Of a stretch of 64,000 nt of DNA, positions 6,201 through 62,575 are shown piece by piece. The DNA lies in the NCBI RefSeq assembly GCF_964355755.1, contig NC_092679.1, positions 868,001 through 932,000 of the forward strand, written 5' to 3'. Every line of letters begins with the position of its first letter. Position 1 is the stretch's first letter. The translations under genes and the position numbers were made by a program. The notes beneath the pieces were generated by a model that was not told the origin of the DNA, ran no database searches, and was given only the letters and a program-made list of their open reading frames with translations. Source of the stretch: Antedon mediterranea. Its lineage: Eukaryota; Echinodermata; Crinoidea; Comatulida; Antedonidae.

Positions 6201-9200
6201 GAAAATCAATTTCAATTTGGAAATACAAGGTTGATTCAACATTTAGTTCATTTTTTTATTAGAAGATTATTATAAGAAATACCAGTCTAATAATTCATAA
6301 TATCAGCTTGCATAGATTATCCTTTAAAGACCCATACTTCTTTGACTCTACATGTATTTTTTTTGTAGGAGGTGCAGCATTTTTTTTAGGAATTTTTGTA
6401 TCTCCTCCATCAAAATTTATTTCAATATATTATATTTTAAATGGAAATACAATGAATTGTTCCCCCTCCTCCTCCTCAGCAGTCTGTAAGTCAGTCTCAA
6501 ATGTGTTGTGATTTTACCTGACATCAATTTCTCCTCCTTCATGCATAATAAAGCCACCATCTGCTGACCTCATTCTCATCAAAAAACCTGCTAACTTTTC
6601 CCTAAAATTAAAAAAAGAACAAAGTACTGAATAACCTATTATAGTTTGTTTAAGTTGTATTTACAATTTGCAGTATATGTGCAGTATATGTGCAGTATAT
6701 GTGCAGTATCTATGCAGTATATGTGCAGTATCTATGCAGTATATGTGCAGTATATGTGCAGTATATATGTTTTAATTATCTGTGGATACTGTTTTATTTT
6801 ATAAGGGTTTTGTCAATATGTTTTTGTCAACATTCTCACCTATTGACTACAGAATATGCTTCTTTTGTTCCTATTGTAGAAAGTGCCAAGACAGCAGCAT
6901 ATGTGGTTGCTAAATGCGCATATTGGCCAGGTCCACCTGTAATTTAATATTCAAATAACATGTGATAAGATTTATCCTAAAATGAATGGCTGGTAACAAA
7001 TGTTCAGAAGATGTGTTAAAAATAAGATTCATAAGTTAAAATAAGTTATTTCACAAAATGAAATTGAGTAGATAAACTTTGATGATACCTCCAAAACCAC
7101 CACCTGGATGTTGACATTTTCCAATAAATTGTGCTACTCTACAAAATACAAAACAATATTCGGTTCAAGAACAAAAGGAAAAATTTAACATTAGATAAAT
7201 TAAAATGAAAAGAAAATACATAAAAATATACAGTATCTCATATAAATAAATGATAAAGACGCTAGTAAATTAACAACTGAACATTTTATTGCACTACAGG
7301 CTGTTTCATGAGTATGAACTCAATCTTCAGGTGCTTGGCTCTGAATGATAGTCACTTGTGAATACAAAAAGCTATAATGAAGTTGTAAGGCAAACTGTTT
7401 ATGTGAACAATAGTATGCTAATTAGCAAGTACAACACATCTCTATTTCCTGGACAGTCTATTGTTAACCAAATTCTTATTATCTAAATTACTGATACCTT
7501 AATAGAAACTTTCTCCTATGTCTACATGCACTGACTAATTCGTTCCTATGGTTAAGTGAGCTGGTTTCAGGCTTGCTTATGATACAGTATCTATATATTC
7601 TATATCTTTTATTCTGTTATCAGATGGATAAAGCTTGGTTCCCACTAGAACGTAACGCAAGGACGTAAACGTAACGCAATCGTTTTAACCAATGACAAGC
7701 GAAGTTATAGACAGTTAGCAATCACAAGTGAATAAGCCATCGCTTGTGATTGGTCAATTCACTTGCGTTGCGTTACGTCCTTGTGTTGCGTCACTAGTAG
7801 TGGGAACCACGCTTAACTAATTCAGGTTTGTAACTACTGTGGAGTAGCTTTGCATCAGACTGTTGAATAATTGGTCAGATGTTTTGCCCTACTCTTTTTG
7901 TACTTTATACTTTTACATTGAGAACACTCGCTAGGCTAGTTATCTGGAGGTTGTGGGTTTCAGTCCCACGAGTCAGAGTATGGCAAAATATCCAACCAAT
8001 TAAGTCAGGTTTAAAACTACAGCCTAAAAAAAATTGTTTTCCCCTCTCACCATTTCTTATTTATTGGTAGTTTTATACTTACTGCGATGCATATTCTTCT
8101 GAAATCTTCTCTCCTAGAAGTTCTAAGCTGTGTAAGATCCAGTAACAGAGCCAAGGTTTGCTAGCATCCAGGCACTCGTAAGATTCTGAAAGGTGCTTCA
8201 ATCCCTTGTTCAGGTAGCCTAGATGCTTTTCACGTTCAAGTTTTGGTCTGAAAAACATTGATTGATATATTGATTGATTAATTGATATACAAGTGTATTG
8301 TAGAAACTTTTTCATATTCGTACTGTTCAACTACATTTCAGATAATAATAAATAATAATATTTTTAAATTATTACCTGGTTTTGTTGTTTTTGATGTTTA
8401 CAGAATAATTATTAATGAATTATATGTGAAATGTAAATAAGCTAAGTGGCCATAATGACACCTATTCCATATGAATATGTTGTCCATGTATATACATGGT
8501 TTTCAAAATACAGGTCTTCAATATTTTACTAAGTTTCAAACATTTCTACAAAAACGTCATACATTTTACTTATACAGTAATTATCCTTAAAATAATTCCT
8601 TGTCTTACATTTTATTTGAACCAGATATAAATGTTTGATAAACTTCACCAACTGATGCTTCTACTTTTTCCTGCAATAATAAATAAATTAAAATCAAGAC
8701 AAACGTAACAAAACCAAGGAGAAAACATACATTTGTTAAAAGGTGGTAATCCCTACCTAACTAGGCTAGTGCAGTGGTGGCATTGTTTAGTAGGTGATCA
8801 CATAAATGATGTGATCGACCTATCTAGGCTTACTCAGTAGAGTAGGCTACTGCCTAGGGTTACAGTGAGTGAGCCTCGAACCTCTGCCGATGTTATGGCT
8901 ACGTAATTACGGTTCCACTGTCTTAACCACTCGGCCACTCACTCACTCACGCCTCAATTTTTGACAATTAAGATGTTATTAACAATATTGACGATTCTAG
9001 CGGCAGAAATGAAAAATACATATTTTGTCTTTTTTGGCGTTTCATGATTTTGGGCGTTCCATAACCGGCGGCCGAAATGATCAGACACCCTGCCTAAGAC
9101 TAAAGTAGCCTCCCTTATAACTTATATAATGTAGGCCTAGCTAGTAGCTAGTAGGCCTAGCCTAGGCTAGTAGTAGTACTACTACTACTAGCCAAAAAAA

Positions 9201-29100: not shown

Positions 29101-29415
29101 AGTTGTTGTGTCTGCATTTTTTCGCCAGAAACGCAACAACGTCATTGCAATTTCTAACCAAAATTGTTGAATAAAGTAAGTATTTATTGTGTATTTATTC
29201 AATATTTTTACTCTCCGAGCATTGAAATAAATGGCGCCTGAAATAAATTGTAATTTCAAAGTTGTTTTGTCTTCCGTCTTCTAAACAGGCATCCAACCTG
29301 GGCTCAACTCCTGTGCAACTACCAACCTGCTGGACAGCGTAGCATCGCCTACAACAGCAGACGGAATTCGTGTCGGTAAACCCTCACCAGCCTGGCCTAG
29401 AGCGTAGACGTAAAT
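26172..29415. other. Region between WDR43 and the TIR-like/death gene
   Basis: Contains the WDR43 3' UTR (AATAAA at 26309-26314), a poly-C run near 26689-26703, AT-rich sequence and the 272-bp triplication. An acceptor-like TTCTAAACAG at 29279-29288 may start the exon that carries the next gene's start codon. No other exon recognised. Confidence 0.5.
27457..28272. repeat. Three tandem copies of a 272-bp unit
   Basis: The marker AAATAGCATAATTGTGTT recurs at exactly 272-bp steps (CATAATTG at 27461, 27733, 28005). The copies are almost identical; the third differs at a few bases (GGGGTGGGGGGCAG). Each ends in GACATCCATCCCGGTCCTAA. The near-identity points to a recent duplication. Confidence 0.95.
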
Positions 29416-32400
29416 ATGCCAGGAGAAAAAAAACAGTTGGACAAGAAACTGGGCATTGGTATGTATACAATTTAAAGAGAATCACTGACATTATTTGTAT
29501 AAAATATATGCTTTCAATTAATTTTATTTGCGATTTTTTTTTCAGTTTAATATTATCATTTGATGCACTAGTTTAATTAAATTCATGAACAAATTCATGT
29601 TTTCAGACAACTGATGCCTCCCACTAATAATAATATCTCAACAGAATTAAGAAATTGAACTAAAAATGTAGGCCATACAGATTTCTGTTGAACACAATGA
29701 TTTTAAAACTTACCGTTTGAATAAAAGAAGAACTAACCAGAAAAAGTAAACTACACTTAACGTTACAGTGCCAATTTACCCCAAATACATAGTAACGGTT
29801 TTCGTCCAACAAAAAAATAAAAAAAAGCATTCTCTCATCATGTGATCAATGAAAATTATGATTCCTTAAGCTTATTTATAAACTTACAGACCATGAATGC
29901 TACTAAGTGTATCCAAAAAAACGAAATATAATCTCAAATATATTACACAAATATATTACACAAAAATGTGTTAATGTCAAATGACACAAAGGGTCAAATT
30001 CCTGCACAAATGTATATTATATCTGGAATGAAACATTTAGTGAATATTAATATAATATACAAACTGATTACAGTAGGCTATCTTTGATTTCATTCATGAA
30101 CCTCATCCCCAACTCCTTTTGAAAGTGTTGAAATATAAACTTATGTTTCAGTTTCAATCCTCCATTGTGAAAATTCACCTGATGACATAAAGTCATTGGC
30201 AAAAAAGATTGATGAAAAGCTTCAACCAGAACGTGCATCAAAGTACCGTCGGAACAAAGTCTCATTCGGTAGGTTGAGTACATTTCTTTGGTTCTTACAT
30301 CTAGTATCATTTCACAATATCTTTTAAAAGTGATGTTCTATTTTGTTGATCCAACCTAAAAATAAAGAACTAAATTATACAACAAATTATCTTTTGTAAA
30401 TGCTCTTCTCTAGTAGGTTGATTTATTTGGATATGATGATAATAATGATAATGATAATCTTCCATCTTCCATACTGGATATTTAAAAAGTAGTTTTCTAG
30501 GCATAAACCTACAGAATATGCTATTTTATGTGACTACAAACTTTGTGACAACAAAATGTGATGCCTATATATGGACATGATGATGTCATATCACTACGAT
30601 ATTTGGGCACATCACACTAGTTTGATAGTGTAGACAGAGCTTAAAGATTGTTTACTTTTTATAGACAAACTGATTGAACAAGTTGAAGCACTAGAAGGAT
30701 GGGGAATTTGCATTATCTCACAAAATGTTCTACAGTTTCTAAGGAAAAGTACAAAGGATACTTTACAAAACTTTCAGGGTAAGAGATTGCTTGGCTATTT
30801 GTAACTTGGATGGTAAAAGTTGCCCTTTTAAGGCCAATTTACACGGACGAGCAGTAACGGTAAGCAGAAAACCACATGCTTGTTCCACGTAGAATAGATC
30901 CATTCTGAGGAGCAGATTTCCGCTCAACCACCTGTCTGCTCCACGTTTTGTGTAAATGATCATAAAGAAATAACACAGATTCTATATTTTTATTTTCCAT
31001 TCACCACATTCCGTTACTCTAATACACCTGAAAAATTGCCTTTACATGTGTATATATTGTAGTTTGTAGATACTGAATTTTGATATTAATTATTACAGTA
31101 CTCCATTTTCACTTGTAGAAAGTTTAACAAAAAAAAGAGATGGATATCCATTGATTGTTTGCCTCAGACTCAACGTGAAGGATGAAGAGGTGCGTGAGTT
31201 TCTACCAAACACGTGGCTGTTGGACATGAACGCTGATTTACTCTGCAATGAGATTTACAAGCTTTGGTTTGGAAATACAGCTTATGTCGATGAAAATGGA
31301 TTTCATGATGATTATGATCAACAGATCAACTCTGGTAAGGGTTTACATTAATTTTTTACAGTTACTGCAGGATTACTGCAGTATTCAAATATTTTAAAAT
31401 TTTGCACATGGACGAATAAATAAATAAGATTCAAAATCAAATCAGATTTCTTGAATTCTAATTTTTTGATTACAATATTTAAATGTTGTGCTCATAGTTT
31501 GAGGGAAAATGTTGAGTAAATGTAATTTGTTTGACTTGACTGATAAAATTGTTCATTTAATAAAGATGTTTTTTTTTTTGTTGCAGTTCACATAATACAT
31601 GCTGGTGAAAATAAGCAATTCTTACATGATTTAAGTGATGCTTTGGAAGATGAAGTTAATCCAGAAAACAGCTGTGAGTTCAGACGATTCTACAGACCAG
31701 GTATTACGATCAACTCTTTGATTTTACTACAGTCAACTATTCCAATACCAGACAGTCTGACCAAATGTTACATGTTTATGTCTCGTCATGTTGTATTTTT
31801 GTGAGGGTCCCTAATGATCATCTTCGGCTGGATGGCCCACCCCGTAAGGTATTCTTGAAATAATTAAATAAATAAAATCAATAAATGTATGTTTTTCTGG
31901 AAATGGAATGTATTTTTAATTGTAACAATGAATCTGGGACCTTTTGGACCTCAAGAAAAGTGTTGTTTTGGGAAAGTTTCTATTTTTCGGTATTAGGAGA
32001 GTTGACTGCACTGTAGGACAACAAACCTGGTACCTGTAGTTTGTTGGATATCTCAAAGTGCACATTGATGATATGTTTTCTAAATCTCAGGAAGCAAGAT
32101 AGCAGAACTAATTTTCAGTGATTTGGAGGCGTTTGTTGCGGGTGATAATCAAGATAAATGCATGGTGATTATAAGCGATCATCTCATTAAGGCATTGGAT
32201 CAATCTGAGACACACAAGGACAAAATTAAGAAGCGTAAGTTTTAGCCAAAATAAACAATACAGCATTGAAAAGCTTAACTAGGACAAATAGAGAACAGTG
32301 ATTGTTCTTCTTGTTTAAAAAATGTTGTTATATGCAATGTTAAATTAATAAATGTTAAATGTTTGTTTCTTTTAAATTTTTTTACAGTTCTCTTTCGGGA

Positions 32401-35400
32401 TTACGCTACACAAATTCCAAATTTTGTTCTTCTGGAGATGACGAGTAACAACATCTTCTCTGATCAATCTTTTATTAAAATCAAAGTGAAGTACAATGAT
32501 GATGATTTACAGTCAATTGCAAAGAAATCTCTTTCTATTTGGTGTAGAGGTAGATCATTATTTTATTTTATATTAATATCACAGATTGAAGCATCCAAAT
32601 AGGAAACTATTGGGATTACATGCTAACCAAGCTATGCAATCTGTTAGCATTGTCCCTACTAACTGCACAGTAGCTTCATATTAATGCCAACTCAGACATA
32701 CAACGAGGCTTGACGAAACGTTGTGACTCGTTGGTGCTGTCTGAGTAGAATCCCGACGAGATGAGTCGTATTGAGATAACGTTGGGCGTAGTTTTTAGGT
32801 CGTCGGGAGAACTTTAAACATGTTTAATTACGACGCTTTGTGAGTTAACCTTATTGCACAGAAAGACCATTGGCAAAGTTGATATACTATTTGTATAGGA
32901 TGTTATTAAACCTAAGAAGGTTTAAAATCTTACAACTAAGTAAGTGCCATAGCTCTGACACTTTGCTACAAAGCAATGGCTTAAGGTTGTCTTTATCTTC
33001 TCTTGAAGATAAACACAGTAGAGCTGACAAAGATTTTGTTAAATTCCATCTAAATTTGTTTTTATTTTTCCAGTTTTTTTACACATAGTCATCTTTTAAA
33101 ATGTAAATCTCATTTTACTACTATTATTTAAGCATCCTTCTTTAACATTAGTATCATTAACATATAGAATACGACTAGCACATTACATGTATGAGAGGAT
33201 GCAACCTATACAAGTAGTTCTCTTTTCCTTCTTATTAAGGTAAGGATGTACTTATTTTCAGAGCCAAGATTCAAGTCAGAGCCAGAGGAGTCTGAGTATT
33301 ATTCTGGAGGAACGCGCCCTGATATAAGTCAGGCTAATGAAGAAGATACAGGTGATGATTATAAACAAAAAGAAATGTGATGTGCCCAAATTTGGTAGTG
33401 ATATTCCCAAACATGGTAGTGATGACATCATCATGTCCATATATGGGCGCATCATACATATTTTGTCACATAAAGTTTGATAGTGTAAACAGAGCTTAAG
33501 ATTGATGTTACACATTCAAACAATTTGTTTCTATAGGAAAGTGTGTTCCATCCCATGCCAACGAGAAACAGGGTCCAATGAGTGGACTTGTAGTCAACAA
33601 CTTGACATCCATGGAGAAATCTTTTAGTGAAAGACAAACAGAACAAGGCAAAGCTGAACACCAAATTAACTCACAAGAAATTGAAACAATTCGACACGAA
33701 ATTGTTAAGCTGGATGGAAAGCCGATAGAGCAAGTAGATGACATGCACATCAGGTCGGAAAATCCTGTGGATCTTCAAAGCAATCCACCACAAGGTATGT
33801 AATTGGAATATGGTTGAACAACGCTCTTTTAAAATTTGGGAATATTATGGAGCAAATATCAAATTATTATTTCAGCTCAAAGGTTTATAAGGAGGTATAA
33901 ACTACAAATACAAAACTAAAAAATGGATTCAAGAATTCAATTTTCTTGGGATTCACAAGATTTGTCAATATTTTTTTTAGATTACCAGCCAGAAAACCCA
34001 AACGCTGTAAAAGGAAAATTTGTTCTAAATTGTTCCAACAACTCTCTAAGTATGAACGAAGGTATTCGTAGAGCTCAGGACATCTCTTACAATAAAGATG
34101 TCAGAAACAAAGACCACAATAATGAAGTAGCAGACAACAAGATGCCCAAGCCAGAACCAAGACATGTGGGGAGTGAAGCCCTGCAGAGCTCATTGCCCAG
34201 CGCTGCAGCACTCTCCACAGGTATTGCTTACAAGGAAGAGTCAATTGATTATGTGCCATCAGCTAGTGGCAAGAAAAGACACATCAGCGAAGATGGAATG
34301 AATTCTGTTTCAATGAAAGGTAAGTTTCTGCTTCCTTCTCAGGCTCTCAATTACATTCAAACAAATTGCTTGTCCTTATATATTCCACGTTTTTTCTCCT
34401 CAGAAGTTGAAACCATGAATGAATGTGTATCTTTGCCGCTGAATCAAAACCAACAAATTATAAACGATGATTCTCATTCAGGTATACTTAACTCATATTA
34501 TCTTCCTCCATTAATGAACTTAGTGAGTACCTGTGGCCGTATTCACCAATTACACTTAAGTGAAATAGTATTTCACTTGACCTAATGAATTTTTAAATAT
34601 TTCCCTTAAATTTAGATAGAAGATTTTTTTTTTTAAAGTTAAGTGTGAATGATGAATAAGACCACTGAGGTCTATAAATACCAACCTACCAACCCAACAC
34701 TATACTCATATTAGGTGCTTCCACCCAGTAACATAGTGGTACTAGTGCTGAACAATGTTCATTTTCTTTACAGGCCCAACCTCATTACCATCTAATCTTA
34801 ATTGGAGAACAAACAGACAAGGTAAGTTTTCCCTTTTTTTAATTTTCTTTTTTTCATCGTTATTATTCAAAGTTAAAAAATTCAACAACTTTTATTGTCC
34901 AATAATAATTTATACAAAATGAGTTTGTTTGATATACTACAGAAAGACAATGACGGTCCGAAAAATAACACAAATAAGCAGTACTTAGCCTACTAAGCCT
35001 AATAAGCACAGTCATTGTATGTTTAAACTTTATTTTTGCAATTCTAGTAAATATGTCAGAATCAAGAGAATCTTTGAAGAAAGGTTAGTAAAATTATCCA
35101 CTAAATCCGTAGCTTATTTATTTACTTTTATTTATTTACTTTTATTTATTTACTGTAAAGAAGATAACCTGTGCAGATTCTTCATTAAAAAAGTAAGCTG
35201 ATATTAAAGCGTGGTTCCCACTAGAACGCAACGTAACGCAGCAATGTATCGACGCAAAGTGCTGTATTGCATAATCACAAGTGGTTTTAACATCGCAGGT
35301 TTGATTTCACGTAGGCGGGGGCAAACACAATTATTAAAAGGGCATTTGCGTTAAGTTGCGTCGCTACTGGGAACCAAGCATAAGTGGTCCTCTATAAATT

Positions 35401-35871
35401 CAAACAAAATACATGTATACAACAATGTAAAACATGAAAAAACAACAGCAAAGCAATATGTATGTGTGTGTAGACGCAATCCGTTGCTCATCTGTGTTGT
35501 CACTTCATCCTTTCATTACCATCAGCATTGTATTTTTTACAATATTCATGAATTTCTTTATTTCATCAGTTTTCAGCCCAGACACTCTGGCTGGTTTACA
35601 GGTTCAATGTCGCAAAGACCTGATAGATAGACTGGATCTCCCGATTCCTTGTGTTCACGATTGGCGTAACTTGGCTGGTCACTACGGTGTATGCAATTCA
35701 ACTATCCATGTATGGAGCGGTAAAATGCCTGTCGTTAGCGCATCTACCGCACTTTTCGATTGGTTGCAAGCGAGTAAGCCGGAATTGACCGTGGCACAAT
35801 TTAAGAATGACCTGCACACCTTCAGAAGAAGAGATGCAGTAAAAATCTTGGAGAATTATGGCTACAATTAA
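29416..35871 (+). CDS. Two tandem TIR-like domains plus C-terminal death domain, 14 exons, 686 aa
   Basis: Probable intracellular adaptor. Exons: 29416-29458, 30152-30268, 30665-30778, 31119-31334, 31587-31700, 32091-32234, 32388-32549, 33262-33351, 33537-33794, 33981-34319, 34404-34481, 34774-34821, 35048-35083, 35570-35871 (2061 bp). An in-frame TAG at 29398 supports the start. TIR-like 1 is about residues 14-163: strand VSILHCEN, helix SPDDIKSLAKKIDEKL, strand GWGICIISQNVL, then PLIVCLRLNVKDEEVREFLP. TIR-like 2 is about 164-303: VHIIHAGENKQFLHDLSDAL, box-2-like RRFYRPG, KCMVIISDHLIKA, PNFVLLEM. Equivalent exon borders in both show internal duplication. Arrangement and the EEVREFLPNTW segment recall BCAP/BANK1 TIR domains, but no DBB or ankyrin region follows. 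Residues 304-586 are polar and disordered. The last exon (about 587-686) is a death domain (LIDRLDLP, HDWRNLAGHYGV, ALFDWLQASKPELTVAQF, RRDAVKILENYGY). The short exons 11-13 are least certain. Confidence 0.83.
30521..30643 (-). mobile_element. MITE family 1, copy in intron 2 of TIR-like/death gene
   Basis: Right end GATAGTGTAGACAGAGCTTAA is intact; the left end is worn (ACAAACTTTGTGACAAC). The core is in reverse orientation (GGACATGATGATGTCATATC). It ends about 20 bp before the 30665 exon. Confidence 0.8.
30829..30964. mobile_element. MITE family 3, copy in intron 3 of TIR-like/death gene
   Basis: Left end GGCCAATTTACACGGACGAG with GTAACGGTAAGC inside. The right end CCACGTTTTGTGTAAATGATC is a degenerate partner. 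Confidence 0.7.
31755..31885 (+). mobile_element. SINE/LINE 3' tail fragment
   Basis: GAGGGTCCCTAATGATCATC, then GGCTGGATGGCCCACCC and a TAAATAAATAAA tail. The GAGGGTCCCTAATGATCA core also ends the SINE at 63418-63672, so this is the 3' part of the same or a related family, in intron 5 of the TIR-like/death gene. Confidence 0.6.
33364..33499 (+). mobile_element. MITE family 1, copy in intron 8 of TIR-like/death gene
   Basis: Core ATGTGATGTGCCCAAATTTG and right end GATAGTGTAAACAGAGCTTA present; the left inverted end is missing. It starts about 12 bp after the 33351 donor and ends about 38 bp before the 33537 exon, so it fills most of the intron. Confidence 0.8.
35205..35382. mobile_element. 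MITE family 2, copy in intron 13 of TIR-like/death gene
   Basis: Ends AAAGCGTGGTTCCCACTAGA and CTACTGGGAACCAAGC are inverted repeats. Inner CAACGTAACGCA matches the family. Confidence 0.8.

Positions 35872-45456: not shown

Positions 45457-62575
<17,119 letters not shown>

Follow-up and report, generated by a model that had tools for sequence, protein, structure and literature searches.

The stretch of DNA under study, referred to here as the window, spans 64,000 nucleotides (C10:868001-932000 of a 354-Mb genome assembly) and contains, on its plus strand at 29416-35871, a gene of 14 exons that join in frame to encode a protein of 686 amino acids. The splice sites are canonical GT/AG, 13 of the 13 introns lie in phase 1, and an in-frame TAG at 29398 precedes the ATG at 29416; the splicing was inferred from the sequence together with a conserved paralogue, L024, which is described below. 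Exon 1 (29416-29458) supplies the start codon and a short N-terminus (MPGEKKQLDKKLGI), and a first exon like it (MAGQHELGS) also lies ahead of the module in a paralogous array. The following exons encode two TIR-like modules. Module 1 (residues 15-163) comes from exons 2-4, of 39, 38 and 72 residues, with exon 2 (30152-30268) providing its first third, exon 3 (30665-30778) its middle and exon 4 (31119-31334) its end and a short spacer. Module 2 (residues 164-303) comes from exons 5-7, of 38, 48 and 54 residues, where exon 5 (31587-31700) runs from the putative strand A to a BB-loop-like region (LEDEVNPENSCEFRRFYRP), exon 6 (32091-32234) forms the middle with KCMVIISDHLI as the candidate strand C, and exon 7 (32388-32549) completes the module (NFVLLEM ... 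SIW).

A linker of 283 residues (304-586), polar and rich in Ser, Glu and Asn, separates the modules from the C-terminal domain. Its larger part, from exons 8-11 (33262-33351, 33537-33794, 33981-34319 and 34404-34481), is probably disordered, and it is followed by the short exon 12 (34774-34821) and the 12-residue exon 13 (35048-35083), both of which are kept in L024. TRAF6-type PxExx[DY] motifs at residues 311 and 396 of the linker were considered and set aside as being at chance level, with 38% of shuffled sequences having at least one. Exon 14 (35570-35871) encodes a death domain and the stop codon. Two of the introns hold related pieces of an interspersed repeat in opposite orientation (30540-30650 and 33370-33500), and similar pieces are found at 55.3-55.5 kb of the window and in L026, part of the array mentioned above.

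The initial annotation had proposed that the two N-terminal segments share their exon borders, and this was borne out. The inner introns are equivalent, falling first after ...YRRNKVSF in module 1 and ...FRRFYRP in module 2, then after ...TLQNFQ and ...DKIKK, and all of them are in phase 1. A global alignment of the two modules gave Z = 4.0 over 1000 shuffles, with an observed score of 28 and a best shuffle that was higher, at 33, so that the direct similarity appears weak but non-random. The best explanation is that the two modules arose when a phase-1 cassette of three exons was duplicated.

When the genome was searched with each half of the gene, a second locus was found on the same chromosome, 11.5 Mb away (L024, C10:12393501-12403000). 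Its model has nine exons and 569 amino acids (L024:1382-4940 and 8097-8835, or C10:12394882-12402335), and it carries module 2, the tiny exons 12 and 13 and the death domain, with their order and borders as in the window gene. Between the two genes, dN/dS is 0.35-0.39 in module 2 and 0.31-0.44 in the death domain, and both ends of the gene are under purifying selection. The duplicated module and the death domain are thus parts of one conserved gene. Module 1 and the linker exons 8-11 are absent from the L024 model. In place of module 1, three exons upstream of module 2 encode a DUF4559 domain (E 3.4e-18), which we take to be the CXorf38-type HEPN family. The region keeps the R-x4-H motif (RNSLSH) and the Zn-ribbon cysteines. 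HEPN domains of this type, into which a Zn ribbon is inserted, are probably active, have been suggested to play a role in defence against RNA viruses, and in amphioxus and cnidarians are found joined to death domains and NACHT (PMC3710099). DNA similarity between the two loci takes in the final 23 bases of exon 4 in the window gene (window 31312, L024:3540), and the simplest reading is that the ancestor of L024 already had module 1, which would later have been lost, with the HEPN exons placed upstream. The L024 intron between the module 2 and death-domain exons houses a Penelope-like retroelement ORF (L024:5490-7541; reverse transcriptase E 2.4e-9, GIY-YIG 0.0008). L019 (E 4.2), a candidate for a further relative on C7, was discarded as an apparently unrelated ORF.

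In a third locus, C10:1.194-1.224 Mb (L025-L027), copies are arrayed in tandem, and the module has yet another partner. Copy A (L025:1919-4459) runs in frame from a short first exon into module 2, then through a small linker to a domain of the Ifi-6-16 (ISG12) type, for a total of 290 codons including the stop, again with all introns in phase 1; the Ifi-6-16 Pfam matches in two of the array copies reach E 5e-19 and 7e-20. Copy B, with its damaged frame, looks like a pseudogene. In copy C the last of the three module exons is missing, and in a fourth unit Ifi-6-16 is present but the module is not. The module belongs to a family whose partner domains are interchangeable.

The assignment of the last exon to the death domain, as had been suggested from its sequence, was confirmed. 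Exon 14 alone matches Pfam Death (PF00531) with E 9.5e-5 and 22.9 bits against a cut-off of 22.6, and in the full protein the score is 20.2 bits, slightly below that cut-off. An AlphaFold model, for which four contiguous homologous exons were the input, has a pLDDT of 88.7, a pTM of 0.79 and six helices (11-21, 31-37, 42-50, 57-68, 74-83 and 87-95). The best structural neighbour is 3mop_K, presumably IRAK2 (Z 12.6, 2.2 A over 91 residues), followed by Pelle/Tube (1d2z_A, 12.5), MyD88 (6i3n_A, 12.1) and IRAK4 (2a9i, 11.7). Foldseek gave modest E-values, the best being 0.085, with a probability of 1.00. Every one of the leading fold matches is a death domain, with CARD and DED relatives lower in the ranking. 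The Myddosome (MyD88/IRAK/Pelle) structural class is favoured for the modelled domain rather than proved, since the p100 and p75NTR death domains also reach Z 11.3, within 1-1.5 Z of the top matches, and a gap among death sub-families of less than 1-2 does not fix the partner class.

That the modules are TIR-like, another proposal of the initial annotation, drew statistical support from module 2 and from the joint profile of the family, and none from standard profiles or from module 1 alone. Neither module matched the TIR, TIR_2, TIR_3 (PF01582, PF13676, PF18567) or SEFIR profiles above cut-off; the best score in the family was a sub-cut-off TIR_2 match, in register, with E 0.094-0.12 (array copy B and a consensus). 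Searches of Pfam, PDB sequences and PADLOC with single modules and with alignments gave no TIR assignment, and the PDB matches of module 1 to the PARP1 BRCT domain (E 0.33) and to a P450 were weak and judged to be due to chance. The SEFIR family, which the initial annotation had named beside TIR, fell away, as there was no PF08357 match and a SEFIR profile from the same genome scored at chance. The comparison was then made with 28 TIR domains from the same genome. Against these, the joint module profile scored 26.2, higher than 200 of 200 column shuffles (maximum 21.9; reverse 11.4), with an alignment that spans helix A, strand B, the BB loop, helix B and strand C. For single sequences scored with a TIR HMM, few shuffles did better than window module 2 (5 of 920), array copy C (4 of 886) or array copy B (14 of 922), all three in the same register, while the L024 module (29 of 947) and array copy A (177 of 950) ranked less well; as several queries were tested, these ranks are not single-test probabilities. 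Module 1 alone showed no TIR signal against the TIR domains of the genome. However, the known BCAP TIR of the same genome, used as a control, fails the shuffle test too, so the null result is weak evidence against a TIR identity for module 1, whose status would follow from its homology to module 2.

A Box-2-like stretch is present in module 2, L-E-x8-C-x2-R-R-F-Y-R-P-G (LEDEVNPENSCEFRRFYRPG), and can be set beside that of a TLR-type TIR of the same genome, L-E-D-Q-R-N-F-K-L-C-V-D-Y-R-D-F-I-P-G. Box 2 is defined as RDxxPG, and an acidic helix-A residue 12-14 positions before the Arg, along with a strand-B Cys, has been stressed (PMC7075850). Compared with that box, module 2 has RR in place of RD and is one residue longer, and the likeness is suggestive only, because the Pro-Gly is lost in the paralogues. 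The human BCAP TIR is just 12% identical to that of TLR2 (PMC5241739) and, as the BCAP TIR of this animal also fails the shuffle test, the failure of profiles is not decisive. Since module 2 and its relatives beat shuffles in the correct TIR register, the modules are likely divergent TIR-like domains, on statistical rather than structural grounds, and module 2 appears closer to ordinary TLR-type TIRs than to BCAP. A SARM1-like TIR NADase would have its catalytic Glu in helix C, within WCxxE. The family alignment shows neither a WC nor a column in which Glu is fixed, and without a catalytic Glu an NADase role is unlikely. The genome carries dozens of TIR-encoding exons, including a cluster of about 18 at C3:5.55-5.66 Mb that are probably from Toll-like receptors, and a cluster of intron-split TIR_2 genes at C11:5.62-5.66 Mb.

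Taken with the death domain, these features make it reasonably probable that the gene encodes a Myddosome-like cytosolic adaptor or scaffold, in which duplicated, divergent and non-catalytic TIR-like modules are combined with a death domain of the MyD88/IRAK/Pelle class at the C-terminus. The TIR-like modules would most likely dock onto a TIR-containing partner once it is activated, or onto each other. The death domain, carried by the flexible linker, could then seed an assembly of death domains through which the signal would reach kinases of the IRAK/Pelle type or partners of the FADD/caspase type. Both the partners and the direction of signalling in this scheme are borrowed from the known biology of MyD88. 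In molluscs, Tolls that carry tandem TIRs give stronger signalling than those with a single TIR (PMC4929906), a precedent for why the duplication might be kept.

The initial annotation described the modules as BCAP/BANK-like, and a rival reading would make the protein a PI3K adaptor of the BCAP/BANK/Dof type with a doubled TIR. A general TIR pattern is indeed present, and there is a weak global alignment of modules 1 and 2 to the human BCAP TIR (Z 2.9 and 2.6). Against this, the TIR_3 profile misses both modules and yet finds one clear gene in the genome, a single exon on C6 (L028, C6:9677105-9677419, E 4.4e-6). This gene scores Z 6.8-7.7 against the human BCAP TIR, is followed by the YxxM-type motifs YYMEM, YLPM and YMDM, and is probably the BCAP/BANK/Dof homologue of this animal. 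Moreover, hhalign of the window modules against a profile of human and own-genome BCAP was at chance level, and in the full 686-residue protein there was no Pfam match to DBB or ankyrin and no YxxM motif. The BCAP/BANK/Dof reading of the window gene is thereby mostly refuted and seems extremely improbable, and with it went the claim of kinship in the original proposal of a lineage-specific adaptor, of which the other part stands in that the family is probably specific to the lineage.

Other readings are less favoured. The modules might be some other small alpha/beta (Rossmann-like) or new fold, making the protein a death-domain adaptor with an interaction module of another kind, as could be argued from the lack of profile matches in Pfam, PDB and PADLOC and from a TIR signal that is weak and confined to helix A to strand C; but the order of strands and helices and the Box-2-like stretch fit TIR, and several family members score above shuffles in the TIR register, leaving this reading rather unlikely. 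It is unlikely, too, that the protein is an inhibitory or decoy adaptor that binds TIR or death partners and blocks Myddosome assembly. The modules are very divergent and have no catalytic residues, and negative regulators such as BCAP are known among TIR proteins (PMC5241739), but the death domain is full-length and under purifying selection, which fits an active assembler at least equally well. A more mundane concern is that neighbouring TIR-like and death genes were wrongly joined or that the gene is a decaying copy, given that the model was built from sequence and that the L024 model lacks exons 8-11. The open frames, the dN/dS well under 1 in both parts and the conserved order and borders in L024, from module 2 through exons 12 and 13 to the death domain, make such a false join or decay very improbable, and uphold the initial view that a doubled module lies upstream of a death domain in a single gene.

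The preferred reading, a Myddosome-like adaptor, places the protein among several known systems without matching any of them. It resembles MyD88 in having a death domain of the same class (6i3n, Z 12.1) and TIR-type modules in a soluble protein; MyD88, however, has its death domain N-terminal to one canonical TIR, whereas here the modules come first and the death domain last, there are two modules rather than one, they fall below profile detection, and the linker is long. Like BCAP, BANK1 and Dof it would be a soluble adaptor whose N-terminal module is of TIR type and very divergent, but it lacks their TIR_3 match, DBB domain, ankyrin repeats and YxxM motifs, and the genome has a separate BCAP homologue. 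The HEPN-death proteins of the CXorf38 family (PMC3710099) are closer to L024, which likewise has HEPN and a C-terminal death domain but with a TIR-like module in between, while the window gene has no HEPN and a second TIR-like module instead. A TIR duplicated within one protein is also seen in mollusc Toll-2 (PMC4929906), although these are transmembrane receptors without a death domain. Lineage-specific combinations of TIR and death folds are described among the amphioxus immune genes, where the TIR partners, in the portions of that account covered here, are NACHT, NB-ARC-WD40, SAM and Laminin, with no combination of tandem TIR-like modules with death, or of TIR-like with Ifi-6-16 (PMC2575513). 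Among the main texts in the part of the literature covered, neither tandem TIR-like modules with a C-terminal death domain nor TIR-like with Ifi-6-16 was found. Domain shuffling of this kind is common in invertebrate immunity (PMC2575513), which limits the surprise, and the HEPN and Ifi-6-16 relatives raise it. The gene is best regarded as a variation on the TIR/death adaptors already known, from a shuffled family that is probably specific to the lineage.

If the preferred reading is true, this would be a death-domain adaptor wired opposite to MyD88 with its receptor-side module doubled, from a family that swaps the partner domain for an RNase-type or a membrane-type domain. It would then offer a clear example from nature of how the wiring from pathogen sensing to cell death can be changed module by module, and would point to a TIR-like family missed by current profile libraries. 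A bolder suggestion, which we hold only tentatively, is that an undescribed, fast-evolving TIR-like family has spread in this lineage as a phase-1 cassette with interchangeable death (assembly), HEPN (likely RNase) and Ifi-6-16 (likely organelle or membrane effector) outputs, and forms a modular antiviral or cell-death system.

Elsewhere in the window, an exon on the minus strand at 16896-17240 matches DUF4706 (E 1.8e-15) and is part of a conserved neighbouring gene. At 45460-47369, also on the minus strand, a cysteine-rich segment that has no Pfam match is accompanied by a transmembrane/cytoplasmic exon, and together they resemble what we take to be the end of a Jagged/Serrate-type Notch ligand. 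A long, coding-frame-like minisatellite at 55818-57188 has a 27-base unit (NIDEACRAT), with several frames open on both strands.
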